DNA of 11,073 nucleotides from an uncultured Erysipelotrichaceae bacterium (GTDB lineage Bacteria > Bacillota_I > Bacilli_A > Acholeplasmatales > Anaeroplasmataceae), in assembly GCA_902783745.1 (NCBI GenBank), contig CACZRY010000082.1:1-11073 (forward strand). The letters are read 5' to 3'. Within the stretch, counting starts at the first letter, position 1; every line of letters starts with the position of its first letter. Of this stretch, positions 1 to 11,073 are shown piece by piece. Under the pieces are notes generated by a model, which made no database searches, was not told the DNA's origin, and saw nothing but the letters and a program-made list of their open reading frames with translations. The translations under genes and the position numbers were made by a program.

Positions 1-382
1 ATTCCAAGACACATTAACATTTGTAGAAGAAGCTAAATTTGAAGGAGCATATACATTTATATATTCTCCAAGAGAAGGCACTCCAGCCGCAACATGGCCA
101 AATCCATTAACTGAAGAAGAAAAGCATGATAGATTAAATAGATTAATTGAAGTTGTAAATAAGGGATATTATGATGGTCATAAGAGATTCTTAGATACAA
201 CAGTTAATGTATTAGTCGATGGTGTTTCTAAAAATGGTAATGGTATGTTGATGGGATATACAGAACATAACAAGGTTTGCCATTTTAAGAGTGAGGATTT
301 ATCTTTAGTTGGAAAATTTGTTAAAGTTCATGTAACTGAAGTTAAATCTTGGTTTATGATTGGTGAATTAGTTAATGAATAA
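1..382 (+). CDS. miaB: MiaB, tRNA-2-methylthio-N6-dimethylallyladenosine synthase, C-terminal part (5' end outside window)
   Basis: The reading frame is open from base 2 to a TAA at 380-382 and gives 126 residues of C-terminus. The early stretch YTFIYSPREGTPAA is the hallmark end of the radical-SAM TIM barrel in MiaB/methylthiotransferases. It is followed by the helix that links to a C-terminal TRAM domain (roughly the last 65 residues, starting near RFLDTTVNVLVDG), which binds the tRNA. The enzyme adds a methylthio group to i6A37 of tRNAs reading UNN codons, using two Fe-S clusters that lie upstream of the window. The last 8 nt overlap the next gene, ymcA, the same neighbour that miaB (ymcB) has in Bacillus, which supports MiaB over the paralogues MtaB and RimO. 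It is the tail of a separate unit, ended by the terminator at 710-745, and has no evident link to the lipid operon. Confidence 0.92.
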   Translation, partial: FQDTLTFVEEAKFEGAYTFIYSPREGTPAATWPNPLTEEEKHDRLNRLIEVVNKGYYDGHKRFLDTTVNVLVDGVSKNGNGMLMGYTEHNKVCHFKSEDLSLVGKFVKVHVTEVKSWFMIGELVNE

Positions 383-704
383 TTTAGATGAAATTAAAGA
401 ATATTTTAATTCATTAGAAGAAGTAAAAAGAATAAAGGAACTTGAGCCTTTAATTGATAAGAATGAAAATGTTCGTAAAAGCTTAGATGAGGTTTTAGAT
501 TTACAGCATAAGCTTGTTTATGCGAAAGTTCATAAAGATTTAAATTATGAATCTTTAGTTAAAATATATAATCAAAAAAAGGAAGAATTAATATCTCTTC
601 CTTTTCTTGAAGAATATTTAGAATTATTAAGTATTGTAGAAGAAATACTTAAGAATTATTCATATGAAATATCATTAAAAATCAATAAAGATATAAATGG
701 ATGA
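375..704 (+). CDS. ymcA: YmcA/YlbF family protein (RicA-like)
   Basis: The 109-residue product is all-helical and highly charged, with the YlbF/YmcA family pattern: an N-terminal helix (IKEYFNSLEEVKRIKELE), a central helix around LDEVLDLQHKLVYAK, and a C-terminal EYLELLSIVEEILK helix. In Bacillus subtilis YmcA (RicA) forms a complex with YlbF and YaaT that affects RNase Y-dependent mRNA processing, biofilm formation and sporulation. Position directly after miaB is the strongest support for YmcA rather than YlbF. Its ATG at 375 overlaps the miaB end by 8 nt and no good ribosome site precedes it, so translation is probably coupled. The protein is shorter than the roughly 140-residue Bacillus form and contains no cysteine. 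It ends at TGA (702-704), the only TGA stop in the window, and a strong terminator follows. The family call is firm; the exact orthology and function are inferred. Confidence 0.8.
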   Translation: MNNLDEIKEYFNSLEEVKRIKELEPLIDKNENVRKSLDEVLDLQHKLVYAKVHKDLNYESLVKIYNQKKEELISLPFLEEYLELLSIVEEILKNYSYEISLKINKDING

Positions 705-818: not shown

Positions 819-847
819 TTGACATTTTATATTATAAAAGATATAAT
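819..847 (+). promoter_or_regulatory. Consensus housekeeping sigma promoter of the lipid operon
   Basis: The -35 box TTGACA (819-824) and the -10 box TATAAT (842-847) are both exact matches to the sigma-A/sigma-70 consensus, with the optimal 17-nt spacer. An A/T-rich tract (about 785-811) just upstream could act as an UP element. Transcription should start near 853-856, giving a leader of about 65 nt before the first ACP gene. A promoter this strong normally needs a repressor, which fits the inverted repeat lying on the start site. No other convincing promoter was seen between here and the right end. Confidence 0.9.
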
Positions 848-918: not shown

Positions 919-1164
919 ATGGAAGAGAAGCAAATTAAGGACGTATTAAAAAAATTTTTAGTTGATGAATTAGGTGTTGATGGAGATGCATTACAAGATG
1001 ATTCAGAATTATTTGGTGATGAAATCGGTCTTGACTCAATTGATTCAATCGAATTAATTTCTTGTATTGATGACAATTTCGGTGTTTCTATGACTGGTGT
1101 TGATAGAGAACATTTCCAAAGTGTTAATACATTAACAGCTTATATTTTAGCTCATCAAAATTAA
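919..1164 (+). CDS. Acyl carrier protein 1
   Basis: This 81-residue acidic four-helix protein carries the growing acyl chain on a phosphopantetheine arm. The attachment serine is Ser40 in GLDSIDSIEL, at the start of helix II. AAAGGA at 903-908 lies 10 nt before the ATG. The motif is GLDSIDSIEL, where primary fatty-acid ACPs usually have GADSLDTVEL. The GLDSID form is one I associate with ACPs beside KS/CLF pairs in polyene and other specialised clusters, so a dedicated partner for the downstream KS-CLF protein is plausible. It is the first gene of the operon and is separated from the rest by a hairpin terminator at 1174-1207, which should make its transcript the most abundant. ACP identity is certain; primary versus specialised use is open. 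Confidence 0.93.
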   Translation: MEEKQIKDVLKKFLVDELGVDGDALQDDSELFGDEIGLDSIDSIELISCIDDNFGVSMTGVDREHFQSVNTLTAYILAHQN

Positions 1165-1173
1165 GATTTTTAT

Positions 1174-1207
1174 GATTGCAGGCCAGTATAAGCTTGCAAT
1201 CTTTTTT
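1174..1207 (+). terminator. Intrinsic terminator / attenuator inside the operon, after ACP 1
   Basis: A 10-bp stem pairs GATTGCAGGC (1174-1183) with GCTTGCAATC (1192-1201). It has one G-T wobble and an 8-nt loop, and is followed directly by TTTTTT (1202-1207). It lies between the ACP 1 stop codon and the ribosome site of the KS-CLF gene. No promoter is visible in the 38 nt left before the next ATG, so the downstream genes probably depend on read-through. This would give excess ACP over the enzymes. Confidence 0.85.
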
Positions 1208-1245: not shown

Positions 1246-3633
1246 ATGACTTTAGATAAGGATAGAGTAGTTATAACTGGTTTAGGTATGATTAGTGCAA
1301 TTGGCCATAATGTAGAAGAATGCATTAAGGCTGCAAAAGAAGGAAAAAGCGGAATTGAAGAAGCTAAATCAGTTTGTACAGATAACTGTTATTCAAAGCT
1401 TGGTGCTGAGGTAAAGAACTTTAATATGGATATCCCTGGCACTGAAGGAATGGATAGAGTTTCTAAGCTTGCAATTACTGCATCAAAAGAAGCAGTAGCT
1501 GATGCTGGATTAGATGATTTCAACAATTCAGAAAGAGTTTCTGTAATTATGGGATCTTGTGTTGGTGGTGCTGTTTCTATTGAAGGATATTACAAGAATG
1601 GCAAAACTAAAGAAGATGTTTTAAGAATGCCTATCGGTACTATTGCAAATGATGTTGCATTAGTACATCATGCAGGTGGTGTTGTTACAAACGTTGCAAA
1701 TGCTTGTGCTGCAGGTACTATTTCAATTGCATATGCATGTGATTTAATTCGTGCAGGTAAGGCTGATATTGTTTTAGCTGGTGGTTCTGATTCATTTGCA
1801 TCAGTACCTTATGCTGGATTCTTAGCATTACATGCATTAGACCCAGATGGATGTTCACCATTTAACCATTTATCAGGTATTACTTTAGGTGAAGGTGCTG
1901 GTGTTTTAGTTGTTGAATCATATGAACATGCTAAGAAAAGAGGAGCACACATTTATTGTGAAGTTTTAGGACAAGGTGTTACATCTGATGCACACCATAT
2001 TACAGCTCCAAGAGAAGATGCTATGATGCAAGTTGTTGCAATGGAAAATGCAATTAAGACATCTGGCGTTACAAAAAAGGATATTTCATATATTAATGCC
2101 CATGGTACAGGTACTCATAAGAATGATGAATCTGAGTTCTTAGGAGCACATAAGGTATTTGATGGACAAAATGATAATTTATCAATTTCATCAACTAAGG
2201 CAATGGTTGGACACTGCTTAGGTGCTGCAGGTGCAGTTGAAGCTGTATTTACAATTAGATGCTTAACTGACCAAGTAGTATTACCTACATTAGGATTTAG
2301 TGATGCTGATTTAGAAACATTAAAAGAAAGAGCAGGTCAAATTGATTTTGTACCTAATAAGGCTCATAAAAAAGAATTACATACAGTTATGTCAAATAAC
2401 TATGCATTCGGCGGAAATGATGCATCTATAGTATTTGCTGATCATCCTGGTGATGTTAAAGTAAATGATTATAAGGATAAGGTTGCAGTAACAGGATTTG
2501 GTGTTTTAACTCCATTATCTAATAATGTTGATGAATATATTTCAAATATTGATACATTTAAACCATCTTTATCATCTATCCATACTGCATATGAAGATAG
2601 CTTATTTGATACTGTTGGCTTAAAAAGAGCATTCTATCGTAAGCTTGATAATTTATCTAAGATGCAAGCTATTTCTGGTATGCAAGCATTACAAAATGCA
2701 GGTATTACTGTAACAGATGAAAATGATAAGAATATTGGTATTGTTGTTGGTACATCTGAAGGTGCATTATCTACATGCTGCCAGTTCCAAGAAAATATTT
2801 ATGAAAAGGGTAATGAGAATGGTAGTGCATTCAATTTCCCTAATACTGTATATAATGCAGCAGGTGGATATTTATCTATTTGTTCTGGCATTAAAGGTTA
2901 CAATGTAACTGTTACAAATGGTGCACAAGCTGGTTTACAATCAGTTGCTTATGCAGTTGATGTATTAAGAAATGGTGTTAATGATACTATTTTAACTACT
3001 GGTATTGATGAAAACACAGAAGTATCAACTGAATTATTTAATAAATTAGGATTAGTATCTAATTCTACAACAGTACCATTTGAAGGTAATAAGAATGGAT
3101 TTACATTATCTGATGCAGCAGTATCTTTAATATTAGAAAATGAATCTAAAGCTAAAGAAAGAGGAGCAAATATCTATGCCTATATTACAGGATATGGTAT
3201 GGCTCATGAATCTGTTAGATATTCAGAAATTAAAGGTACTGATATAGCATTAGAAAAGGCAATTAATCTTGCGTTAAAGGATGCTAATTTAACAATTGAT
3301 GATATAGATGCAGTTGAATCATTCGCAAATGGTTATAAGGATATTGATGATATTGAAGTAAATGTTTTATCTAAAGTATTTAAGGATAAGATTAATGAAA
3401 CTCCTTTATTTGCGATAAAGGAAAACTTAGGTGAAGCAAGAGCCGGTGGTGCAATGGCACAGGTACTTGATGCATCATTAGTATTAAGTGGTAAATTATC
3501 TCATAAGGATGCATATTACATTACATCTGGTAAGGCAGAAAAGAAGAATTTCAAAAATAAGGAATTAAAGAATATCTTAGTTACATCATATGGTGCAGCA
3601 GGTTCATATACTGCAATAGTTGTATCTAAGTAA
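1246..3633 (+). CDS. Fused ketosynthase and chain-length-factor-like protein (KS-CLF)
   Basis: One 795-residue chain holds two complete thiolase-fold ketosynthase domains, twice the FabF length. Domain 1 (about 6-400) is a full condensing enzyme: nucleophile Cys154 in NACAAG, His286 in NAHGTGT, Lys318 and His323 in STKAMVGH, and the NNYAFGGND end motif. Domain 2 (about 411-795) keeps the fold (GFGVLTPLSNNV; FPNTVYNAAGG at 531-541) but lacks catalysis. Cys aligns with Ala560, followed by Gln561; the two His positions are Phe693 and Glu730. This is the pattern of a KS-beta or chain-length factor. Start: AAGGAG at 1233-1238, 7 nt before ATG. The linker (about 400-412) has no in-frame ATG, GTG or TTG, so it is a true fusion. 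Domain 1 extends acyl chains with malonyl-ACP. By analogy with type II polyketide and PfaC systems, domain 2 would pair with it and shape the chain tunnel. The domain 1 sequence resembles KSs of specialised clusters more than classical FabF. Confidence 0.9.
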   Translation: MTLDKDRVVITGLGMISAIGHNVEECIKAAKEGKSGIEEAKSVCTDNCYSKLGAEVKNFNMDIPGTEGMDRVSKLAITASKEAVADAGLDDFNNSERVSVIMGSCVGGAVSIEGYYKNGKTKEDVLRMPIGTIANDVALVHHAGGVVTNVANACAAGTISIAYACDLIRAGKADIVLAGGSDSFASVPYAGFLALHALDPDGCSPFNHLSGITLGEGAGVLVVESYEHAKKRGAHIYCEVLGQGVTSDAHHITAPREDAMMQVVAMENAIKTSGVTKKDISYINAHGTGTHKNDESEFLGAHKVFDGQNDNLSISSTKAMVGHCLGAAGAVEAVFTIRCLTDQVVLPTLGFSDADLETLKERAGQIDFVPNKAHKKELHTVMSNNYAFGGNDASIVFADHPGDVKVNDYKDKVAVTGFGVLTPLSNNVDEYISNIDTFKPSLSSIHTAYEDSLFDTVGLKRAFYRKLDNLSKMQAISGMQALQNAGITVTDENDKNIGIVVGTSEGALSTCCQFQENIYEKGNENGSAFNFPNTVYNAAGGYLSICSGIKGYNVTVTNGAQAGLQSVAYAVDVLRNGVNDTILTTGIDENTEVSTELFNKLGLVSNSTTVPFEGNKNGFTLSDAAVSLILENESKAKERGANIYAYITGYGMAHESVRYSEIKGTDIALEKAINLALKDANLTIDDIDAVESFANGYKDIDDIEVNVLSKVFKDKINETPLFAIKENLGEARAGGAMAQVLDASLVLSGKLSHKDAYYITSGKAEKKNFKNKELKNILVTSYGAAGSYTAIVVSK

Positions 3634-3646: not shown

Positions 3647-4378
3647 ATGAAGGTTGCAATCGTTACAGGTGCATCAAGAGGAATAGGTAGAGCATGTGCT
3701 ATTACTCTTGGAAGCAATGGTTATACAGTTGTTATAAATTATTCTTCAAGTGAAGCAAAAGCTCAAGAAGTTTTAGATATCATTAAAGCTAATGGCGGCG
3801 ATGGTATGATTTATAAAGCTGACGTTTCTAAGCTTGATGATGTTAAAGCAATGGTTAAGGAAGTTTATAATACATATAAGCAAATTGATGTATTAGTAAA
3901 CAACGCTGGTATTGCAAGAGATGAATTCTTATTAACTATGTCTAGTGAAAATTTAGATAAATGCTTTGATTTAAATGTTAAGGGTTATTTCTATATGGCT
4001 CAGCAGGTTGGATTAAAGATGTTTAGAAAAAAGAGTGGAGTTATTATTAATATGTCATCAGTTTCTGGTACATATTCAATTCCAGGTCAAACTGTATATT
4101 CAGCAACAAAGGGTGCTGTAAACCAGTTTACTAGAACTCTTGCAAAGGAAATGGCTCCTTATGGAGTTAGATGTAACGCGATTGCTCCTGGATTCATTTT
4201 AACTGAAATGATGGATGCAATTCCTGAAGATAAAAAAGAAGAATATATTAAGCACATTCCAGAAGGTAGATTTGGTAGTGTTGATGATGTTGCAAATCTT
4301 GTATTAACATTATGTGATGATAAGCTTTCATATGTTACAGGACAAGTAATTACAATTGATGGAGGTTTATCACTATAA
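3647..4378 (+). CDS. fabG: 3-oxoacyl-ACP reductase FabG
   Basis: This 243-residue short-chain dehydrogenase reduces 3-oxoacyl-ACP to 3-hydroxyacyl-ACP with NADPH, the first reduction after each condensation. The cofactor loop TGASRGIG is at 7-14 and NNAG at 85-88. The catalytic tetrad is Asn110, Ser138, Tyr151 and Lys155 (YSATK), the same numbers as in E. coli FabG. The C-terminus ends in VTGQVITIDGGLSL, as expected for FabG. Length is typical. ATG at 3647 is chosen because of the AAGGAGG at 3632-3638, and it gives the usual MKVAIVTG opening. The stop codon shares one base with the fabZ start (TAATG), so the two are translationally coupled. Position between the KS and the dehydratase supports a FabG role over other SDR functions. 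Confidence 0.95.
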   Translation: MKVAIVTGASRGIGRACAITLGSNGYTVVINYSSSEAKAQEVLDIIKANGGDGMIYKADVSKLDDVKAMVKEVYNTYKQIDVLVNNAGIARDEFLLTMSSENLDKCFDLNVKGYFYMAQQVGLKMFRKKSGVIINMSSVSGTYSIPGQTVYSATKGAVNQFTRTLAKEMAPYGVRCNAIAPGFILTEMMDAIPEDKKEEYIKHIPEGRFGSVDDVANLVLTLCDDKLSYVTGQVITIDGGLSL

Positions 4379-4821
4379 TGTTAAACATTAATGATATTAA
4401 TAAAAAGATTAAACAACGTCCACCATTCCAAATGATTGAACGTGTTATAGAATTAGAACCAGGTGTTATGGCTAGAGGTACTAAGTGTGTTTCTGTTAAT
4501 GAACCATATTTTATGGGACATTTCCCAGGTGCACCAATTATGCCTGGTGTATTAATTATTGAATCATGTGCTCAGTTATGCTCATTTGTATTTGATACTG
4601 ATGCATCTGATGAAGAAAAATTATATGTAATAGTTAAGGTTGATAATTTTAAATTTGCAAAGCCTGTTATCCCTGGTGATGTTTTAGATATAACTGTTAC
4701 ATTATCAAAAACTATGGGACCTCTTGCAGTATTTGATGCAAAGGTAATGGTTGATAACGAATTAAGAGCAAAAGGAACTATGACTTTTACTAGTGCTGAT
4801 AAATCAAAGATTTATGGCTAA
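4378..4821 (+). CDS. fabZ: 3-hydroxyacyl-ACP dehydratase FabZ
   Basis: This 147-residue single hot-dog-fold protein removes water from 3-hydroxyacyl-ACP to give trans-2-enoyl-ACP. The opening RPPFQMIERVIELEPG is typical. Catalytic His48 lies in GHFPGAPIMPG and Glu62 in LIIESCAQ. Glutamate rather than aspartate at that place marks FabZ rather than the FabA dehydratase-isomerase, so no built-in double-bond isomerisation is expected from this feature. KVDNFKFAKPVIPGD (87-101) is the standard FabZ strand. Length is normal. The start overlaps the fabG stop by one base. A GGAGG lies 12 nt upstream, so coupling probably aids initiation. FabZ acts as a homodimer assembled into a hexamer in other bacteria. 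Its enoyl product would need a reductase that is not recognisable in the window. Confidence 0.95.
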   Translation: MLNINDINKKIKQRPPFQMIERVIELEPGVMARGTKCVSVNEPYFMGHFPGAPIMPGVLIIESCAQLCSFVFDTDASDEEKLYVIVKVDNFKFAKPVIPGDVLDITVTLSKTMGPLAVFDAKVMVDNELRAKGTMTFTSADKSKIYG

Positions 4822-4839: not shown

Positions 4840-5577
4840 ATGAAGAAGATTTTAGTATTGAACGGAAGTCCTAAAAATGAAAATAGTAGTACATTAACTG
4901 TAACTAAGGCATTTGTTGATGGCTTAATTGAGAGTGGTGAATATGAAGTTGAATATGTAAATCTTTCTTCATTAAATATTAAACCTTGTACAGGTTGCTT
5001 ATCTTGCTGGGGAAGAACTGCAGGAGAATGCGTTATAAAAAATGATGATATTCCATCTTTTAAGGCTAAAGTTGAAGAAGCAGATATATTTATTGAATCA
5101 TATCCATTATTTTTCTTTGGAATGCCTGGTACTATGAAGGTATTTACAGATAGAATGCTTTCTATGATGAATACTTATAGAGGACAAGGTGCACCAGAGG
5201 ATGGTAAAAGCTTCCATGGAATTAGAAATCCAAAGCCAGAAAGACGCTTTGTTATAATTTCAAGCTGTGCATATACAGAGGCAAGTACTATATATGAGCC
5301 TTTAAAGATGCAATATGATTATATTTGTGGTAAGGGTGAATATACATTTATTGGAGTACCACAATTAAAAACATTAATTGATCTAAAGAATGAAAAGAAG
5401 ATTACAAGATATTTAAGTAAATTCAAGGAAGCTGGTATTGAATTTGCAAAAAATGGTAAGTTATCAAAAGAAACAGAAGATAATCTATTAAAACCACCAT
5501 TTACTGAAAGTGGATATAAGGTATTTTTAGATAATTTCTGGACTGAAGAGGAAGAAAAAGGTAAGAATTTAAAATAA
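4840..5577 (+). CDS. NAD(P)H-dependent FMN reductase / iron-sulfur-flavoprotein-like protein
   Basis: This 245-residue protein has a flavodoxin-like fold. The opening MKKILVLNGSPKNENSSTLT holds the FMN phosphate loop (about 8-20), and ESYPLFFFGMPGTMKVFTDRM (86-106) is the second flavin-binding segment of NADPH-dependent FMN reductase/WrbA relatives. Between them Cys50, Cys53, Cys56 and Cys64 are spaced C-x2-C-x2-C-x7-C, the compact cluster motif of archaeal and clostridial iron-sulfur flavoproteins, so a [4Fe-4S] cluster is possible. The C-terminal region (about 125-245) is longer than in simple FMN reductases. It probably moves electrons between NAD(P)H, FMN and a partner. Its place between fabZ and ACP 2, in the same operon and 18 nt after fabZ, suggests a redox step on the acyl chain, but the sequence does not show the substrate. 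It is not related to the FabK or FabI enoyl reductases. The family is well supported; the role is unknown. Confidence 0.8.
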   Translation: MKKILVLNGSPKNENSSTLTVTKAFVDGLIESGEYEVEYVNLSSLNIKPCTGCLSCWGRTAGECVIKNDDIPSFKAKVEEADIFIESYPLFFFGMPGTMKVFTDRMLSMMNTYRGQGAPEDGKSFHGIRNPKPERRFVIISSCAYTEASTIYEPLKMQYDYICGKGEYTFIGVPQLKTLIDLKNEKKITRYLSKFKEAGIEFAKNGKLSKETEDNLLKPPFTESGYKVFLDNFWTEEEEKGKNLK

Positions 5578-5593: not shown

Positions 5594-5830
5594 ATGTTTG
5601 AAGAAATTAAAAGACTTCTTATAGAGAATGCTAATTGTGATAAAGATAAAATAACTCCTGATGCATTATTAAAAGAAGATTTAGGAATAGATTCTTTATA
5701 TGCAGTAGAATTAATTTTATATTTAGAAGAAGAGTTTAATATTTCAATTGATTGGGAAGATATTGAAAATTTAAAATATGTTTCTGATGTTGTTGATTTA
5801 GTTGAAAAGAAGATAAGGGAGAAGAAGTAA
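5594..5830 (+). CDS. acpP: Acyl carrier protein 2
   Basis: This 78-residue acidic ACP has the phosphopantetheine site Ser34 in LGIDSLYAVEL. Helix II and loop (LILYLEEEFNISI) and the C-terminal YVSDVVDLVEKKI helix match fatty-acid ACPs more closely than ACP 1 does. An unusual point is Tyr after DSL, where Asp is normal. GGGAGG at 5580-5585 is 8 nt before the ATG. The stop is only 2 nt from the accB start, so it is coupled to the acetyl-CoA carboxylase genes. It clearly differs in sequence from ACP 1, so this is not a recent duplication. It may be the carrier for bulk malonyl loading, or the two ACPs may serve different steps; the sequence does not decide. The symbol is given for the family and not as proof that this is the main housekeeping ACP. 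Confidence 0.9.
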   Translation: MFEEIKRLLIENANCDKDKITPDALLKEDLGIDSLYAVELILYLEEEFNISIDWEDIENLKYVSDVVDLVEKKIREKK

Positions 5831-5832
5831 TA

Positions 5833-6294
5833 ATGAAAAATTTTAATGATATAGAAAAATTAGTTGAATTATTTGAAAAATCATCCTTAACAGTTATGGA
5901 AGTTGAAGTTGAAGGTTTAAAGGTGAAATTTGATAAGCGTAATTTTGATGAACCACAAGTTGTATCTACACCAATGGCTTATCCTACAACTGAAGTAAAA
6001 AATAATAATAATACAAATGCATTAAATGAAAATACAAAAGTAAATGATGATGAAAATGCAAAATATATAACATCACCACTTGTAGGTACATTCCATCAAG
6101 GTCCTACTGCAAATGCAGCTGCATTAGTAAAGGTAGGAGATGTTGTTCATAAGGGACAAAAGCTTTGTATGATTGAAGCTATGAAGGTTATGAACGAAAT
6201 TACTGCAACAACTGATGGTAAAATCTTAGCTGTACTTGTTGAAGACGGTTCAATGGTTGAATACGGTCAAAAGCTATTTAAGATAGGTGAATAA
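5833..6294 (+). CDS. accB: Biotin carboxyl carrier protein of acetyl-CoA carboxylase
   Basis: This 153-residue subunit carries biotin between the carboxylase and transferase halves of acetyl-CoA carboxylase. Residues 1-36 form the usual N-terminal AccB helix and strand (DIEKLVELFEKSSLTVMEVEVEG). Residues about 40-77 are a flexible linker. It is rich in Asn (NNNN at 57-60) rather than the Ala/Pro found in higher-GC species, probably from base composition. Residues 78-153 are the biotinyl domain, opening with SPLVGTFHQGP and holding the target Lys118 in EAMKVMNEI. The thumb loop typical of AccB is present around SPLVGTFHQGPTANAAALV. It starts 2 nt after ACP 2 (AAGGGAG at 5815-5821) and ends 2 nt before accC, in the usual accB-accC order. 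A separate biotin ligase must act on Lys118; none is in the window. Confidence 0.96.
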   Translation: MKNFNDIEKLVELFEKSSLTVMEVEVEGLKVKFDKRNFDEPQVVSTPMAYPTTEVKNNNNTNALNENTKVNDDENAKYITSPLVGTFHQGPTANAAALVKVGDVVHKGQKLCMIEAMKVMNEITATTDGKILAVLVEDGSMVEYGQKLFKIGE

Positions 6295-6296
6295 TT

Positions 6297-7664
6297 ATGT
6301 TTAAGAAAATATTAATTGCGAACCGAGGTGAAATAGCTGTAAGAATCATAAGAGCCTGTAAGGAATTAGGAATAGAGACTGTTGCAGTATATTCTAAGGC
6401 TGATGAGCATGCATTACATAAGGAATTAGCTAATGAAACTGTATGTATTGGTGAAGCATCTGCTCAGGATTCTTACTTAAATATGGAGCGCTTAATAAGT
6501 GCTGCTTGTTTAACAGGTTGTGATGCAATACATCCTGGCTTCGGATTTTTATCAGAAAACCCAACATTTGCACGTATGGTAGAAAAATGTGGACTTGTTT
6601 TTATAGGACCTAATCCAGATGTTATGGAGAAAATGGGAAATAAGGCAGAGGCAGTTCAATCAATGATTGCTGCAGGTGTACCTGTAGTGCCTGGTTCTCA
6701 TAAGGCTGTTACTATGGAAGAGGGTAGAAAGATTGCTGATGAGGTAGGCTACCCAGTATTAGTTAAAGCTTCTGCTGGTGGTGGGGGAAAAGGAATTAGA
6801 AAGGTTAATTCACATGATGAGTTTGAAGAGCTTTATAATGAAGCTCATGAAGAAGCAATTAAATTCTTTGCTAATGGAGATATTTATGTTGAAAAATGTA
6901 TTATAAATCCAAAGCATATTGAAGTTCAGCTATTATGTGATAAGCATGGACATGTTATTCATTTATTTGAACGTAATTGCTCAATGCAAAGAAGAAATCA
7001 AAAAATGCTTGAAGAAGCTCCTTGCCAATCAATTTCTAAGAAATTAAAAGAAAAATTATATAAATCAGCAATTGATGCATGCAAATATGTAAATTACGAT
7101 TCAGTTGGTACAATTGAATTTTTAGTAGATAAGGATGAAAACTATTATTTCATTGAAATGAATACAAGAATTCAAGTTGAACATTGTGTAACTGAAGAAA
7201 TAACTCATATTGATATTGTAAAAGCAATGATTAAGTCTGCATATGGCTTAAATCTAGAATATAAGCAAGAAGATGTTAAATGCTTAGGATATGCAATTGA
7301 ATGTAGAATTGCTGCAGAAGATGTATCAAATGGTTTCCTTCCATGTCCTGGTGAAATATCATTCTTACATATTCCTGGTGGAATGGGTGTAAGAGTTGAT
7401 TCAAGTGTATATCCAGGATATAGAATTTCACCATTTTATGATTCTATGATTTTAAAGTTAATTGTTTTTTCTAAAACAAGATTAGAATGCATAAGAAAAA
7501 TGCGTGCAGCATTAGAGGAATTAATTATAGATGGAGTAAATACTACTATTGAATTCCATTATGTATTATTGCATGATCCAAAATTCATTTTAGGAAATTA
7601 TGATACATCATTCATTGAAAATTTCATAAAGGAGTTGGATTCTAATGCAAAACGCATTCGATAA
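6297..7664 (+). CDS. accC: Biotin carboxylase subunit of acetyl-CoA carboxylase
   Basis: This 455-residue ATP-grasp enzyme carboxylates the biotin on AccB with ATP and bicarbonate, and is close to the E. coli length of 449. The N-terminal domain opens FKKILIANRGEIAVRIIRAC. The ATP-grasp glycine loop KASAGGGGKGIRK spans 157-169. RRNQK around Lys236 and EMNTRIQVEH (287-296, with catalytic Glu287, Asn289 and Arg291) complete the active site. The C-terminal domain holds ECRIAAED and the PGYRISPFYDSMILKL segment. One small difference is Cys297 where the family normally has Pro (EHPVTE). AGGTGA at 6285-6290 lies 6 nt before the ATG. The last 20 nt overlap accD, so the two subunits are translationally linked. 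Linked genes for all four subunits point to acetyl-CoA carboxylase rather than pyruvate or propionyl carboxylase. Confidence 0.96.
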   Translation: MFKKILIANRGEIAVRIIRACKELGIETVAVYSKADEHALHKELANETVCIGEASAQDSYLNMERLISAACLTGCDAIHPGFGFLSENPTFARMVEKCGLVFIGPNPDVMEKMGNKAEAVQSMIAAGVPVVPGSHKAVTMEEGRKIADEVGYPVLVKASAGGGGKGIRKVNSHDEFEELYNEAHEEAIKFFANGDIYVEKCIINPKHIEVQLLCDKHGHVIHLFERNCSMQRRNQKMLEEAPCQSISKKLKEKLYKSAIDACKYVNYDSVGTIEFLVDKDENYYFIEMNTRIQVEHCVTEEITHIDIVKAMIKSAYGLNLEYKQEDVKCLGYAIECRIAAEDVSNGFLPCPGEISFLHIPGGMGVRVDSSVYPGYRISPFYDSMILKLIVFSKTRLECIRKMRAALEELIIDGVNTTIEFHYVLLHDPKFILGNYDTSFIENFIKELDSNAKRIR

Positions 7665-8514
7665 AAGAAAAGAAGAATTAAAAGAATTTGATGATGCAAT
7701 GGAAAAGCTTAATTTAAAAAAGCGTGATAAGACTATTGTTGTTAAGCAAGTACCATCAGACTTAATGGATAAATGTAGTAAATGTGGTAGATTTGTTGTT
7801 AAAGAAGAATTATTAGCAAATTTAAAGGTTTGTCCATATTGTGGTCATCATCAAAGATTGACACCAAAAGAAAGATTAGAACAGGTATTAGATCCTGGTT
7901 ATGAAATAATCTTAAATGATATAGAAGAACATCACTTAGATTTTCCTGATTATAAAGAAAAACTAAATCTTGCAAAGGAAGAAACAGGAGATGATGAATC
8001 AGTTGTTTGTGCAAAGGGTTCAATTGATGGAATTAATGTATTAGTTGGTGTAATGAATTCATTTTTTATGATGGGTTCAATGGGTTCAGTAACTGGTGAA
8101 AAGATTACTCGTTTATTTGAACTTGGAAATGATAAAAAGCTTCCTGTTATAATATTTACTTGTTCTGGTGGTGCAAGAATGCAGGAAGGTGTAATTTCGT
8201 TAATGCAAATGGCTAAAACTAGTGAAGCAGTTGGTAGATTTAATGAGCTTTATATTGCTGTATTAACTGATCCAACTACAGGTGGAGTTTCAGCATCATT
8301 TGCAACACTTGCAGATATTACTCTTGCAGAACCTAAAGCATTAGTTGGTTTTGCAGGTAAAAGAGTTATTGAGCGTACTATAAAAGAAACATTACCAGAT
8401 GAATTCCAGACTGCAGAATTCTTACTTGAAAAAGGTTTCTTAGATTCTATTGTTTCAAGAAAGGATATGAAGAAGAAGTTGAATTTATTACTTCGTCTTC
8501 ATAATTATAGATAA
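7645..8514 (+). CDS. accD: Carboxyltransferase beta subunit of acetyl-CoA carboxylase
   Basis: This 289-residue subunit pairs with AccA to move the carboxyl group from biotin to acetyl-CoA, making malonyl-CoA. A four-cysteine zinc ribbon is present: Cys44-x2-Cys47 and Cys63-x2-Cys66 (CSKCG, CPYCG). A crotonase-fold core follows, with GSMGSVTGEKITRLFE (144-159), the oxyanion region TCSGGARMQEG (172-182) and TDPTTGGVSASFA (208-220). The ATG at 7645 lies inside accC and has its own AAAGGAG (7628-7634) 10 nt upstream, so the 20-nt overlap is real. The charged region before the zinc ribbon (about 43 residues) is somewhat longer than in E. coli. The stop shares one base with the accA start. All expected residues are present. 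Confidence 0.96.
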   Translation: MQNAFDKRKEELKEFDDAMEKLNLKKRDKTIVVKQVPSDLMDKCSKCGRFVVKEELLANLKVCPYCGHHQRLTPKERLEQVLDPGYEIILNDIEEHHLDFPDYKEKLNLAKEETGDDESVVCAKGSIDGINVLVGVMNSFFMMGSMGSVTGEKITRLFELGNDKKLPVIIFTCSGGARMQEGVISLMQMAKTSEAVGRFNELYIAVLTDPTTGGVSASFATLADITLAEPKALVGFAGKRVIERTIKETLPDEFQTAEFLLEKGFLDSIVSRKDMKKKLNLLLRLHNYR

Positions 8515-9434
8515 TGAGTAATTTAAGAGATAATGAACTAAAAATTAAAGAAATGCAGCAAGAATTATCATCACTTAATCCAGAATGTGATGAATATAAA
8601 GCTTTAGCAGCAAAGCTTTATGAATTTAAAAAAGAAACCTATAAGGATTTATCTCACTGGGATAAGGTATGTATTGCTAGAAGCCCAGAAAGATTAAAAG
8701 CAAAGGTTTTAATTGATAAGCTAATTACAGATTTCTTTGAAATACATGGTGATCAATTATTTAGTGATGACCAATCAATAATAGCAGGTATAGGTTTTTT
8801 AGATGAAATACCTGTTACAGTACTTGCACAAGCAAAGGGTACTAATACAGAAGAATCTATTAGAAGAAATTTCGGTATGACTTCTCCTGAAGGATTTAGA
8901 AAAACATTAAGATTAGCAAAAGAAGCAGAAAAATTTAATCGTCCAATTGTTACAATTGTTGATACTTCAGGTGCATACCCTGGTAAGGGTGCAGAAGAAA
9001 GAGGACAGGCTAGAGCAATAGCTCAGAATATAATGGAGTTTTCTAAACTTAGAGTTCCTGTTGTTGCAATTGTATTATCTGAGGGTGGTTCTGGTGGTGC
9101 ATTAGCATTAACAGTTTCTGATTATGTATTCATGTTTGAAAATGCAACATATTCAGTTCTATCACCTGAAGGATTCTCATCTATTTTATTCAAAAATTCT
9201 AAAACAGCTGAAGAGGCTGCAAATATTATGAAGCTAACAAGCCATGACTTAAAAGAAATTGGTGTTGTTGATGAAATCTTATATGAACCATTAGGCGGTA
9301 TTAAGGTACCTAATGATGAATATGTAGAACAGCTACGTCATAAGATTTCAAAAAGAATTAAAAAGCTTCAAAAGACTAGTTTAGAAGAATTATTAAAAGA
9401 TAGATATAATAAATTTAGAAAAATAGGATTATAG
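8514..9434 (+). CDS. accA: Carboxyltransferase alpha subunit of acetyl-CoA carboxylase
   Basis: This 306-residue subunit completes the alpha2-beta2 carboxyltransferase with AccD. The N-terminal region (1-50) is a charged helix pair, as usual. GTNTEESIRRNFGMTSPEG (109-127), DTSGAYPGKGAEERGQA (150-166) and SEGGSGGALAL (189-199) are the signature blocks, including the glycine-rich oxyanion-hole loops that hold biotin and acetyl-CoA. SPEGFSSILFKN (217-228) is also standard. Length is close to E. coli AccA (319). The ATG overlaps the accD stop (TAATG) and no clear ribosome site precedes it, so translation depends on coupling, which helps keep the two subunits equimolar. It ends with TAG, the only TAG stop in the window. 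Nothing suggests damage or divergence. Confidence 0.96.
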   Translation: MSNLRDNELKIKEMQQELSSLNPECDEYKALAAKLYEFKKETYKDLSHWDKVCIARSPERLKAKVLIDKLITDFFEIHGDQLFSDDQSIIAGIGFLDEIPVTVLAQAKGTNTEESIRRNFGMTSPEGFRKTLRLAKEAEKFNRPIVTIVDTSGAYPGKGAEERGQARAIAQNIMEFSKLRVPVVAIVLSEGGSGGALALTVSDYVFMFENATYSVLSPEGFSSILFKNSKTAEEAANIMKLTSHDLKEIGVVDEILYEPLGGIKVPNDEYVEQLRHKISKRIKKLQKTSLEELLKDRYNKFRKIGL

Positions 9435-9442
9435 GAGGACTA

Positions 9443-10546
9443 ATGGATTTATCATATTATATGCCCACTAAATTATTAATGGGTGAAAATGTAGTTGAAA
9501 AGAATAAGAGCATTTTTAGTATTTATGGTAAATCTGCTCTTATAGTTACAGGTAAAAATAGTGCAAAATCATCAGGAGCATTAGATGATGTTATAAACGC
9601 TTTAAATAGCTATAAAATATCATATACTGTTTTTGATAAGATTATGCCAAATCCTACAGTTGATGTAGTATATTTAGGTGCTAGCGTAGCAAAAGAGAAT
9701 AATTGTGATTTTGTTATTGCAATAGGTGGAGGATCACCTATGGATGCAGCTAAAGCTATTAGTGCATTAACAAAGAATAATGTTTCAAAAGAAGATGTAT
9801 TTAATTCAAGTAAATATCATGACATAATGCCTATGATTTTTATTCCTACAACTGCAGGTACAGGTAGTGAGGTTACTCAATACTCTATTCTTACAGATGA
9901 TAAGAATGAAACTAAAACATCTATTGCATCAACTTTATTCTTCCCTAATGTTGCATTACTTGATGCAAAATATATGAAGAATTTAGGTCGTGCAACAACA
10001 ATTAATACTGCGATTGATGCATTATGCCATGCAATTGAATCATATTTATCTAAAAGAAACACTTCAGTTTCTGAAATATTTTCTTTAGAAGCTATTAGAT
10101 TAATCGCTAAGGAATTTAATAATTTAAAGAAATATGACCTAGATTACAATAGTAGATCAAATCTACTTTATGCATCAAGCCTTGCTGGTATTGCGATTGC
10201 ACATACATCAACAGTAGTTGTACATGTTATGGGATACCCACTAACATATTATAGAGATATAGATCATGGTAGAGCTAATGGTTTAGTTCTATTACAATAC
10301 TTATATAAAGTTAATGAATCATATCCTGATAAAATTAATAGATTATTAGAAGCGTTAAATTTAACATCACTAAAAGAATTTGATAATGTTATTTCATCTC
10401 TTTTAGGTGAAAAAGAAAATGTATCTTTAGATGAAATAAAGAAATTTGCATCTAATTCTATGAAGAAGAAAAATGTTTCTAATTCAATAGTTGAATTAAC
10501 TGAAAATGATTTAATTGATATGTATTCAAATGTATTTTTAAAATAA
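9443..10546 (+). CDS. Iron-containing (group III) alcohol dehydrogenase
   Basis: This 367-residue, apparently NAD(P)-dependent alcohol/aldehyde dehydrogenase belongs to the iron-activated family. It opens SYYMPTKLLMGEN, typical of these enzymes. The nucleotide loop GGGSPMDAAKA spans 95-105 and the FIPTTAGTGSEVT block 133-145. Metal ligands are all present: Asp192 and His196 in DALCHAIE, His261 and His275 in the HVMGYPLTYY...DHGRANG segment. The histidine that usually lies four residues after the third ligand (His267 in E. coli FucO) is Tyr265 here. I recall this GYPLT form from some clostridial members. AGGAGG at 9433-9438 sits only 4 nt before the ATG, 8 nt after accA, so it is part of the operon. 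Its job among fatty-acid genes is not shown by sequence. Aldehyde/alcohol interconversion of an acyl product or short-chain precursor is speculative. Substrate unknown. Confidence 0.88.
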   Translation: MDLSYYMPTKLLMGENVVEKNKSIFSIYGKSALIVTGKNSAKSSGALDDVINALNSYKISYTVFDKIMPNPTVDVVYLGASVAKENNCDFVIAIGGGSPMDAAKAISALTKNNVSKEDVFNSSKYHDIMPMIFIPTTAGTGSEVTQYSILTDDKNETKTSIASTLFFPNVALLDAKYMKNLGRATTINTAIDALCHAIESYLSKRNTSVSEIFSLEAIRLIAKEFNNLKKYDLDYNSRSNLLYASSLAGIAIAHTSTVVVHVMGYPLTYYRDIDHGRANGLVLLQYLYKVNESYPDKINRLLEALNLTSLKEFDNVISSLLGEKENVSLDEIKKFASNSMKKKNVSNSIVELTENDLIDMYSNVFLK

Positions 10547-10559
10547 GAGGTATATTGAA

Positions 10560-11073
10560 ATGAAAATTGCATTTTTATTTGCAGGTCAAGGTGCTCAAGC
10601 AAAAGGCATGGGCAAGGATTTTTATGATAAATATGATTATGCAAAAAAATTATATGATGAATTTCCTGAAATAAGAGACTTATGCTTTGATGATAAAGAT
10701 GATGTTATCAATCAAACAGCATATGCACAAAAAGCAATGTTATTAACATCATATGTTTATGCTATGGGATTAAAGAATGCAGGTATTATGCCTGAATATG
10801 GCTGTGGCTTATCACTTGGTGAATATAGTTGTTTAGCATTTGCATCTGTATGGAATTTAAAGGATGCTTTATATATTGTAAAGAATCGTGGAGAAATTAT
10901 GCAGAATGCATTACCTTTAGGTACAACTAAAATGGCTGCAATTATTGGTCTTGATAGAGAAAAAATTCAAGAAGTTATAGGAAATGTTTCAGGTACATGT
11001 GAAATTGCAAATTATAACTGTCCTGGTCAAATTGTTATTACAGGTGACAATTTAGGCGTTGATAATGCTATGA
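10560..11073 (+). CDS. fabD: Malonyl-CoA:ACP transacylase FabD, N-terminal part (3' end outside window)
   Basis: The frame opens at ATG 10560, 13 nt after the dehydrogenase, with AAGAGG at 10545-10550, and runs to the window edge, giving 171 residues of an expected 300 or so. It transfers malonyl from CoA to ACP for use by the ketosynthase. It opens KIAFLFAGQGAQAKGMG, the FabD signature. The nucleophile is Ser85 in GLSLGEYS; Leu replaces the His found before Ser in E. coli (GHSLGEY), which I recall as common in clostridial FabDs. Arg110 (KNRGEIMQ), which binds the malonyl carboxylate, is present, as is the MAAIIGL strand and NCPGQIVITG. The second catalytic residue, a His near position 200, lies beyond the window. 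The operon likely continues to the right, where FabH, an enoyl reductase or other accessory genes might be found. Confidence 0.95.
   Translation, partial: MKIAFLFAGQGAQAKGMGKDFYDKYDYAKKLYDEFPEIRDLCFDDKDDVINQTAYAQKAMLLTSYVYAMGLKNAGIMPEYGCGLSLGEYSCLAFASVWNLKDALYIVKNRGEIMQNALPLGTTKMAAIIGLDREKIQEVIGNVSGTCEIANYNCPGQIVITGDNLGVDNAM

Follow-up and report, generated by a model that had tools for sequence, protein, structure and literature searches.

A single-chain ketosynthase and chain-length-factor-like protein in an acc-fab operon: candidate sole condensing enzyme of a FabH-independent fatty acid synthase

What does a ketosynthase (KS) do when it is joined in one chain to an inactive partner of the same fold and lies among the genes of fatty acid synthesis? 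The question is raised by the open reading frame (ORF) at 1246..3633 (+) in a stretch of 11,073 nucleotides from an uncultured Erysipelotrichaceae bacterium (contig CACZRY010000082.1), the whole of which we call the window. An earlier note on this DNA had read the ORF as a KS fused to a chain length factor (CLF)-like domain in an operon of acc (acetyl-CoA carboxylase) and fab (fatty acid biosynthesis) genes; our analysis partly supports its interpretation. Judging from gene content, some gut and rumen bacteria appear to make fatty acids with one double-sized condensing enzyme replacing two separate ones. We favor, with moderate confidence, a type II fatty acid synthase that does without FabH and has the fusion as its sole condensing enzyme. 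Priming would probably be by decarboxylation of malonyl-acyl carrier protein (ACP), and a flavoprotein of the same operon is the candidate enoyl reductase.

The ORF is a single open frame of 795 amino acids, and a family search finds the domain pair PF00109 and PF02801 in it twice, which bears out the two KS folds described earlier. The KS half (residues 1-405; 1246..2460, +) carries the catalytic residues C154, H286, K318 and H323, as placed by alignment and structure comparison. The CLF-like half (residues 410-795; 2473..3630, +), recognized by alignment, tree and structure match, has A560 (followed by Gln561), F693 and E730 at the catalytic sites. Both sets of residues had been named correctly, as had the lack of an in-frame start codon in the linker; codons 386-430, between the halves, hold no ATG, GTG or TTG. 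Conservation was followed in 75 aligned fusions, comprising 74 chosen from 121 protein ids (the window's own included) and that of Lachnospira eligens. C154, H286, K318, H323 and N384 are invariant in 75/75. The same sites in the second half are almost always non-catalytic. The Cys site (560) is Ala in 46, Ser in 11, Pro in 6, Phe in 4, Asn, Cys and Thr in 2 each, and Gly and Met in 1 each; the first His site (693) is Phe in 73, with one Met and one Cys; and the second (730) is Glu in 74 and Asp in 1. Lys725 and Arg732 of the second half are invariant in 75/75. HGTG occurs in the second half, beyond residue 420, in 0/119 full-length proteins among the matches listed from the protein search given below. 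With one KS bearing the Cys-His-His set and a KS-fold partner without catalytic residues, the family has the makeup of a KS-CLF, and the ORF joins an intact ketosynthase to an inactive partner of KS fold in one chain.

Measured against the 90%-identical locus of Acholeplasmatales bacterium Tb.RUG.213 (L001), dN/dS is ~0.074 in the KS half and ~0.21 in the CLF half, so both halves are under purifying selection. Since a length of at least 780 amino acids is also kept in 119/120 proteins among the matches listed (of 766), the fusion is neither chance nor decay. The AlphaFold model of the whole chain (pLDDT 90.6, pTM 0.94) has as its best Foldseek match the PfaC KS-CLF didomain 6riw, with both halves covered (E 2e-51, TMq 0.79, root-mean-square deviation 7.3, 912 columns, 18% identity). 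In this structure prediction of the chain as one unit, which the earlier note had proposed, the two halves are predicted to pack as a built-in KS-CLF pseudo-heterodimer.

The partners of the fusion are encoded as discrete proteins on the same strand (+). Upstream is ACP1 (919..1164; PF00550, 41.8 bits), with GLDSIDSIEL around the modified Ser. Downstream come a FabG-like 3-oxoacyl-ACP reductase (3647..4378; TIGR01830, 273.9 bits, below the cut-off of 297.75) and the 3-hydroxyacyl-ACP dehydratase FabZ (4378..4821; NF000582, 134.4 bits, past the cut-off of 113; TIGR01750, 129.4 bits, below that of 155.15). The candidate enoyl reductase, a flavodoxin-fold flavin mononucleotide (FMN) reductase with a CX2CX2CX7C motif, lies at 4840..5577 (PF02525/PF03358) and is followed by ACP2, which is AcpP-like (5594..5830; NF002148, 71.7 bits, above the cut-off of 71). 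The carboxylase is represented by AccB, the biotin carboxyl carrier protein (5833..6294; TIGR00531, 131.1 bits, above 115.2), the biotin carboxylase AccC (6297..7664) and the carboxyltransferase beta subunit AccD (7645..8514), the latter two assigned by reading of the translation and by their kept position in syntenic loci, and the carboxyltransferase alpha subunit AccA (8514..9434; TIGR00513, 344.1 bits, above 319.3), the sole accA match in genome G000. The malonyl-CoA:ACP transacylase FabD (10560..11072) is cut by the window end, and its 154.8 bits to TIGR00128 (cut-off 260.9) are for the partial protein.

Sixteen fusion loci were fetched from the 21 fusion genomes other than the window's. 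The order KSCLF-FabG-FabZ is kept in 16/16, the flavoprotein in 15/16 and the order ACP2-AccB-AccC-AccD-AccA-FabD in 14/16. The two exceptions to the last are a locus that stops at a contig edge (L040) and one whose genome has accA on a different contig (L043, from G114). ACP1 is recognized in 11/16 and in L. eligens, the four-Cys motif of the flavoprotein is conserved, and a biotin ligase follows FabD in both loci tested. The claim of a stand-alone KS-CLF in an operon with discrete FabG, FabZ and ACPs is supported, with FabD and acetyl-CoA carboxylase to be added. A correction is that the fusion is not rare; single-chain KS-CLFs are also found in polyketide synthase (PKS)-like clusters of Priestia and of Streptomyces plasmids.

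We then ask whether other condensing enzymes accompany the fusion. The 55 genomes of the source organism's family are mostly incomplete assemblies of the metagenome-assembled kind and are mutually related; they are not independent samples, and Fisher values on co-occurrence are therefore only descriptive. The fusion is present in 22/55, three times partial owing to contig ends. A separate FabF occurs in four of these 22 (G103, G105, G116 and G117), in a run with FabH, FabK, FabG and FabZ, and has no match in the other 18. FabH is found in 0/18 of the fusion-only genomes and in 7/7 of the family genomes with a separate FabF. Completeness is at least 90% for ten of the 18, two of those ten having 7-8% contamination. 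As a loose control, the FabH search was positive in 13/14 known genomes and above cut-off in 8. A partial FabH in G099 (192 bits, below cut-off) was counted as FabH though G099 has no KS match, and a distant KS match with in-frame stops in G090 was not counted as FabF. That match (G090:C177:1767-2621) is 31% identical and has three in-frame stops; fusion, FabH and accA were not found in G090.

accA is present in 23/25 genomes with fusion or FabF versus 1/30 of the others, and never with more than one match per genome. Among the 22 fusion genomes it is on the fusion's contig in 17 and on a different contig in G106, G110 and G114; no accA was found in G093 or G113, where the contig with the fusion ends early. 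Where the fusion coexists with a FabH/FabF operon, in four genomes, the sole accA belongs to the fusion operon. The flavoprotein is in 21/22 fusion genomes versus 0/33 others at E 1e-20, the exception, G113, being cut at the contig edge. Neither fusion nor separate FabF is found in 30/55 genomes (29 without a KS match, and G090 with its distant, stop-broken one). Of these 30, 29 show no accA, although PlsX is kept in 27. Such genomes appear auxotrophic for fatty acids, and the fusion operon would therefore mark which family members can synthesize. PlsX itself was tried as a marker of de novo synthesis and is of no use, being present in 52/55 genomes. A second PlsX copy is seen in 10/55 (G000:C11:3960-4934 and nine others), and eight of the ten also have a FabK-like match above 300 bits.

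The fusion extends beyond this family. A protein search with the second half gave 766 matches among 7995 scored candidates, of which the best 120 are listed, one of them (P0002) the window's own. All 119 full-length proteins among the matches listed carry ACAA and HGTGT, and the source-given names there include Anaeroplasma, Acholeplasmatales, Lachnospiraceae and Treponema. The search of related genomes that the earlier note proposed thus recovers the fusion there, and also in proteins named from unrelated anaerobes. Pieces of it bear the names Fibrobacter and Ruminiclostridium among the best 120 of 214 matches to a second-half search. Free-standing CLF relatives were sought among those same 120, of which 22 were inspected. 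The 18 CLF-like ones all begin within a fusion and so look like pieces of one; of the other four, one is a distant KS protein of 668 residues and three, at 26-28% identity, are single KS proteins. Of the 33 matches at E 1e-25 from a sweep of 392 genomes of the phylum, 4 are fusions of the KS-CLF family and the other 29, at 25-31%, are single KS proteins. Viral contigs, scanned by pattern, yielded no relative. In the cultured Lachnospira eligens ATCC 27750, the fusion (58.6% identity) is the only match on a 626-kb megaplasmid, in a gene run ACP-KSCLF-FabG-FabZ-FabD-AccD-AccA-flavodoxin-PlsX, where AccA was read from an unlisted ORF.

With no FabH or separate FabF in 18 genomes, a single accA and a linked flavoprotein, the fusion looks like a primary synthase and not a side system, and we infer a fatty acid product. 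PlsX in the same run of L. eligens points to phospholipids as its destination. In the cycle that we propose, FabD would load malonyl, made by the operon's own carboxylase, onto ACP. Since there is no FabH, the primer needs another source. The simplest is the KS half itself, which with H286/H323 and K318 would decarboxylate malonyl-ACP and so generate its own acetyl primer. PMC8666670 reports, for other systems, initiation without FabH by way of a malonyl-ACP decarboxylase activity. The KS half would then condense, FabG reduce and FabZ dehydrate, and the flavodoxin-fold FMN protein would reduce enoyl-ACP to close the cycle. The CLF half would complete the acyl tunnel and limit chain length.

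E. coli FabI at E 1e-15 gave 15 matches, all of them operon FabGs at 23-28% identity; no search was made for FabV, FabL or other enoyl reductases. FabK was considered as the missing reductase and set aside: 8/18 fusion-only genomes have it above 300 bits, and in G000 and G095 it is off the fusion contig, next to an ORF that from its start resembles an aldo-keto reductase. Six of the ten fusion-only genomes without it are at least 90% complete.

Several observations weigh against the fusion being such a synthase. The FabK-like matches above 300 bits, though 0/8 reach the curated cut-off, include one in the window's genome, and because of them another enoyl reductase may serve in those eight genomes. 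The best PDB sequence match of the flavoprotein, flavone reductase (FLR) of Flavonifractor plautii (7d38), is weak and partial (38 bits, residues 3-110). The C-terminal tail that FLR needs for activity is unmatched, which sets the flavoprotein apart from the FLR class; in fold it is similar to azo- and quinone reductases. FLR is an FMN ene-reductase of WrbA-like fold, and is itself unable to use NAD(P)H directly, according to PMC7862272. In four aromatic CLFs of Streptomyces, Gln stands at the Cys column, whereas here that column is Ala and the Gln comes one column later; that residue therefore lends no support to decarboxylation of the CLF type, and we have placed decarboxylation in the KS half. 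Finally, 30/55 genomes lack both fusion and FabF, and PlsX is retained in 27 of them; life on fatty acids from outside thus seems feasible for these bacteria, and the product of the fusion could be something else.

The strongest rival takes up that last point. It holds that the locus is a highly reducing type II PKS in which KS-CLF, FabG and FabZ make a polyene or other specialized acyl product without enoyl reduction, while membrane fatty acids come from the environment. Reduction of the enoyl bond is the main point on which the two readings part, and we consider this rival unlikely, though worth keeping in view. The DSIDS motif of ACP1 is one of such systems and counts for it, as do the existence of relatives without any KS, the want of a real FabI and the frequent absence of FabK. 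The KS half, moreover, groups with ApeO (on a long branch) and with the plasmid PKS fusions. The set of KS-CLF, ketoreductase, dehydratase and ACP present here is also that by which the subfamily is described in PMC10698177. However, the interval from the fusion to FabD has no recurring extra gene of at least 90 amino acids beyond the acc/fab set in the compared loci (the flanking ORFs being mostly not identified), and no genome has a second accA. The tight linkage of the flavin reductase to the fusion and the PlsX inside the L. eligens run also speak against this rival.

A second rival, which we hold to be less probable still, makes the locus a specialized acyl supplier. The second half would measure one defined short or medium chain, e.g., an octanoyl primer or a lipid tail, and bulk lipids would be taken up from the surroundings or, in four genomes, made by the separate FabH/FabF operon. 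That those four keep both systems fits it, as does the role of CLF as a length determinant in polyketide and polyunsaturated fatty acid (PUFA) systems, which the review PMC9702510 describes. However, the sole accA of the same four genomes is that of the fusion operon, and 18 genomes hold the fusion system alone.

The remaining alternatives concern ancestry. The earlier note named one outcome that would undo its reading, namely a FabF of the usual kind with a second, decayed copy in tandem. In its favor, the whole protein scores 495.9 against the NCBIfam FabF equivalog cut-off of 493.75, although two stretches add to that score. We built a maximum-likelihood tree of 51 rows, without ApeC, dropped for its very long branch (3.98), and without PfaC sequences; ApeO and ApeR sit on long branches in it and many rows are uneven in composition, which calls for caution. 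The CLF halves of the window's family, Priestia and Streptomyces form one clade (support 100/98). The KS halves group with the fused KSs of Priestia and Streptomyces, with ApeO and with chain B of 9s5h (96/89), apart from the order's FabF. Approximately unbiased (AU) tests reject a single clade of both halves of the family (p-AU 2e-5) and a grouping of its KS halves with the FabF of the order (p-AU 4e-4). A clade uniting the KS halves of all fusions is absent from the best tree but is not rejected (p 0.25). On this tree neither half groups with the order's own FabF, and with both halves kept in nearly every listed protein the tandem copy is refuted, unless long-branch effects mislead the tree; we give it hardly any credence. 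Equally remote is a reduced PUFA synthase making polyunsaturated chains: PfaC is the best whole-length structural match, but at 18% identity, and it is not in the top 60 when the family profile is matched to PDB sequences; membership is rejected on domain content, the 795-residue chain having two KS folds with no dehydratase or further domain and no Pfa-type gene being among the window genes searched.

The FabF score has a further consequence. Because the chain just passes the FabF model, and because public records name its relatives merely as beta-ketoacyl synthase family protein, annotation tends to hide the fusion. A broader proposal, which we put forward only tentatively, is that an unrecognized primary fatty acid synthase exists across several lineages of gut and rumen anaerobes. 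In it, one KS-CLF would both start, by decarboxylation of malonyl-ACP, and elongate, replacing FabH and FabF. A four-Cys flavodoxin-fold FMN protein, of a class not known for the reaction, would replace FabI, FabK, FabL or FabV, and the CLF half would be a built-in chain-length ruler.

Some other features of the locus may be recorded. A promoter-like TTGACA-17-TATAAT lies upstream of ACP1 at 819..847 (+); it agrees with the consensus at 12/12 positions but is a sequence match only, and at a looser threshold the stretch has 7 promoter-like sites versus 5.8 expected in shuffles. Its hexamers and spacing are the same in L001. A terminator-like hairpin with a T-run stands between ACP1 and the fusion (1174..1201, +; mean 0.0 in shuffles) and is identical in L001. 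The two elements may raise ACP1 over the rest of the operon, the hairpin by transcriptional attenuation. Upstream and outside the operon is a YlbF/YmcA-like protein (375..704, +; PF06133, 22.7 bits, just below the cut-off of 23.9), followed by a terminator-like hairpin at 710-738 from a hairpin scan. An iron-containing alcohol dehydrogenase (9443..10546, +; PF00465) is a variable insertion between accA and fabD. Outside the window, the compared loci show it only in L037 and L001, both of which cover one stretch of the genome of G095 (a 90% relative). It could form a fatty alcohol or aldehyde, or be unrelated.

A one-chain KS-CLF as such is not categorically new, since PfaC is known and one-chain KS-CLFs are annotated in PKS-like clusters. 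Its deployment in a discrete acc-fab operon without FabH or FabF appears undescribed; searches of the open-licence PMC literature gave no account of a stand-alone KS-CLF fusion as the condensing enzyme of such an operon. In bacterial lipid synthesis, the FabH and FabF steps count as nearly universal and as drug targets. If the fusion does replace them, polyketide-type machinery can take over primary metabolism, and some common gut anaerobes would be predicted to respond differently to inhibitors of FabH, FabF, FabI or FabK. The question whether a CLF sets chain length in a system with reduction in every cycle would also find a natural test.

Among known systems, PfaC of PUFA synthases likewise has KS and CLF in one chain, and our model aligns with it over both halves. 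It also carries dehydratase domains and is part of a multidomain megasynthase, whereas the window protein is a 795-residue chain with discrete partners. The ishigamide KS/CLF (6kxd), other highly reducing type II PKSs and the aryl polyene pair ApeO-ApeC are two separate proteins in secondary-metabolite clusters, in contrast to one chain in an acc-fab operon. The two chains of PDB 9s5h (3-oxoacyl-ACP synthases) are separate as well. In single-query PDB searches each half has one of them as its best match, the KS half chain B and the CLF half chain C; in the family-profile search chain B ranks fifth, behind FabFs. In the fold searches 9s5h is not among the leading matches listed. The single-chain KS-CLFs of Priestia megaterium pBM500 and of Streptomyces plasmids have the same fused order at 31-33% identity, but their CLF halves have other residues at the catalytic sites than the window's family. 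The Priestia fusion (L078:11998-14427) is in a PKS-like operon with a glycine-cleavage-T-like protein, in a cluster with a phosphopantetheinyl transferase, a thioesterase and a major facilitator superfamily transporter. The Streptomyces plasmids (L079:9322-14355 and L080:6939-12313) have a separate KS, a separate CLF-like KS and the one-chain KS-CLF side by side, adjoining a KSIII gene. Of the cyclases or aromatases of aromatic type II PKS clusters, none is among the window genes searched. FabF is a one-domain chain of ~410 amino acids acting after FabH. The KS half has its catalytic set and fold, but it is fused to an inactive half and stands without FabH; the chain has two domains where FabF has one, and the AU test rejects a grouping of the KS half with the order's FabF. 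From the canonical type II fatty acid synthase, acetyl-CoA carboxylase, FabD, FabG, FabZ and ACP are all present here (AccC and AccD by reading only), whereas FabH, which that synthase has, is found in none of the fusion-only genomes.

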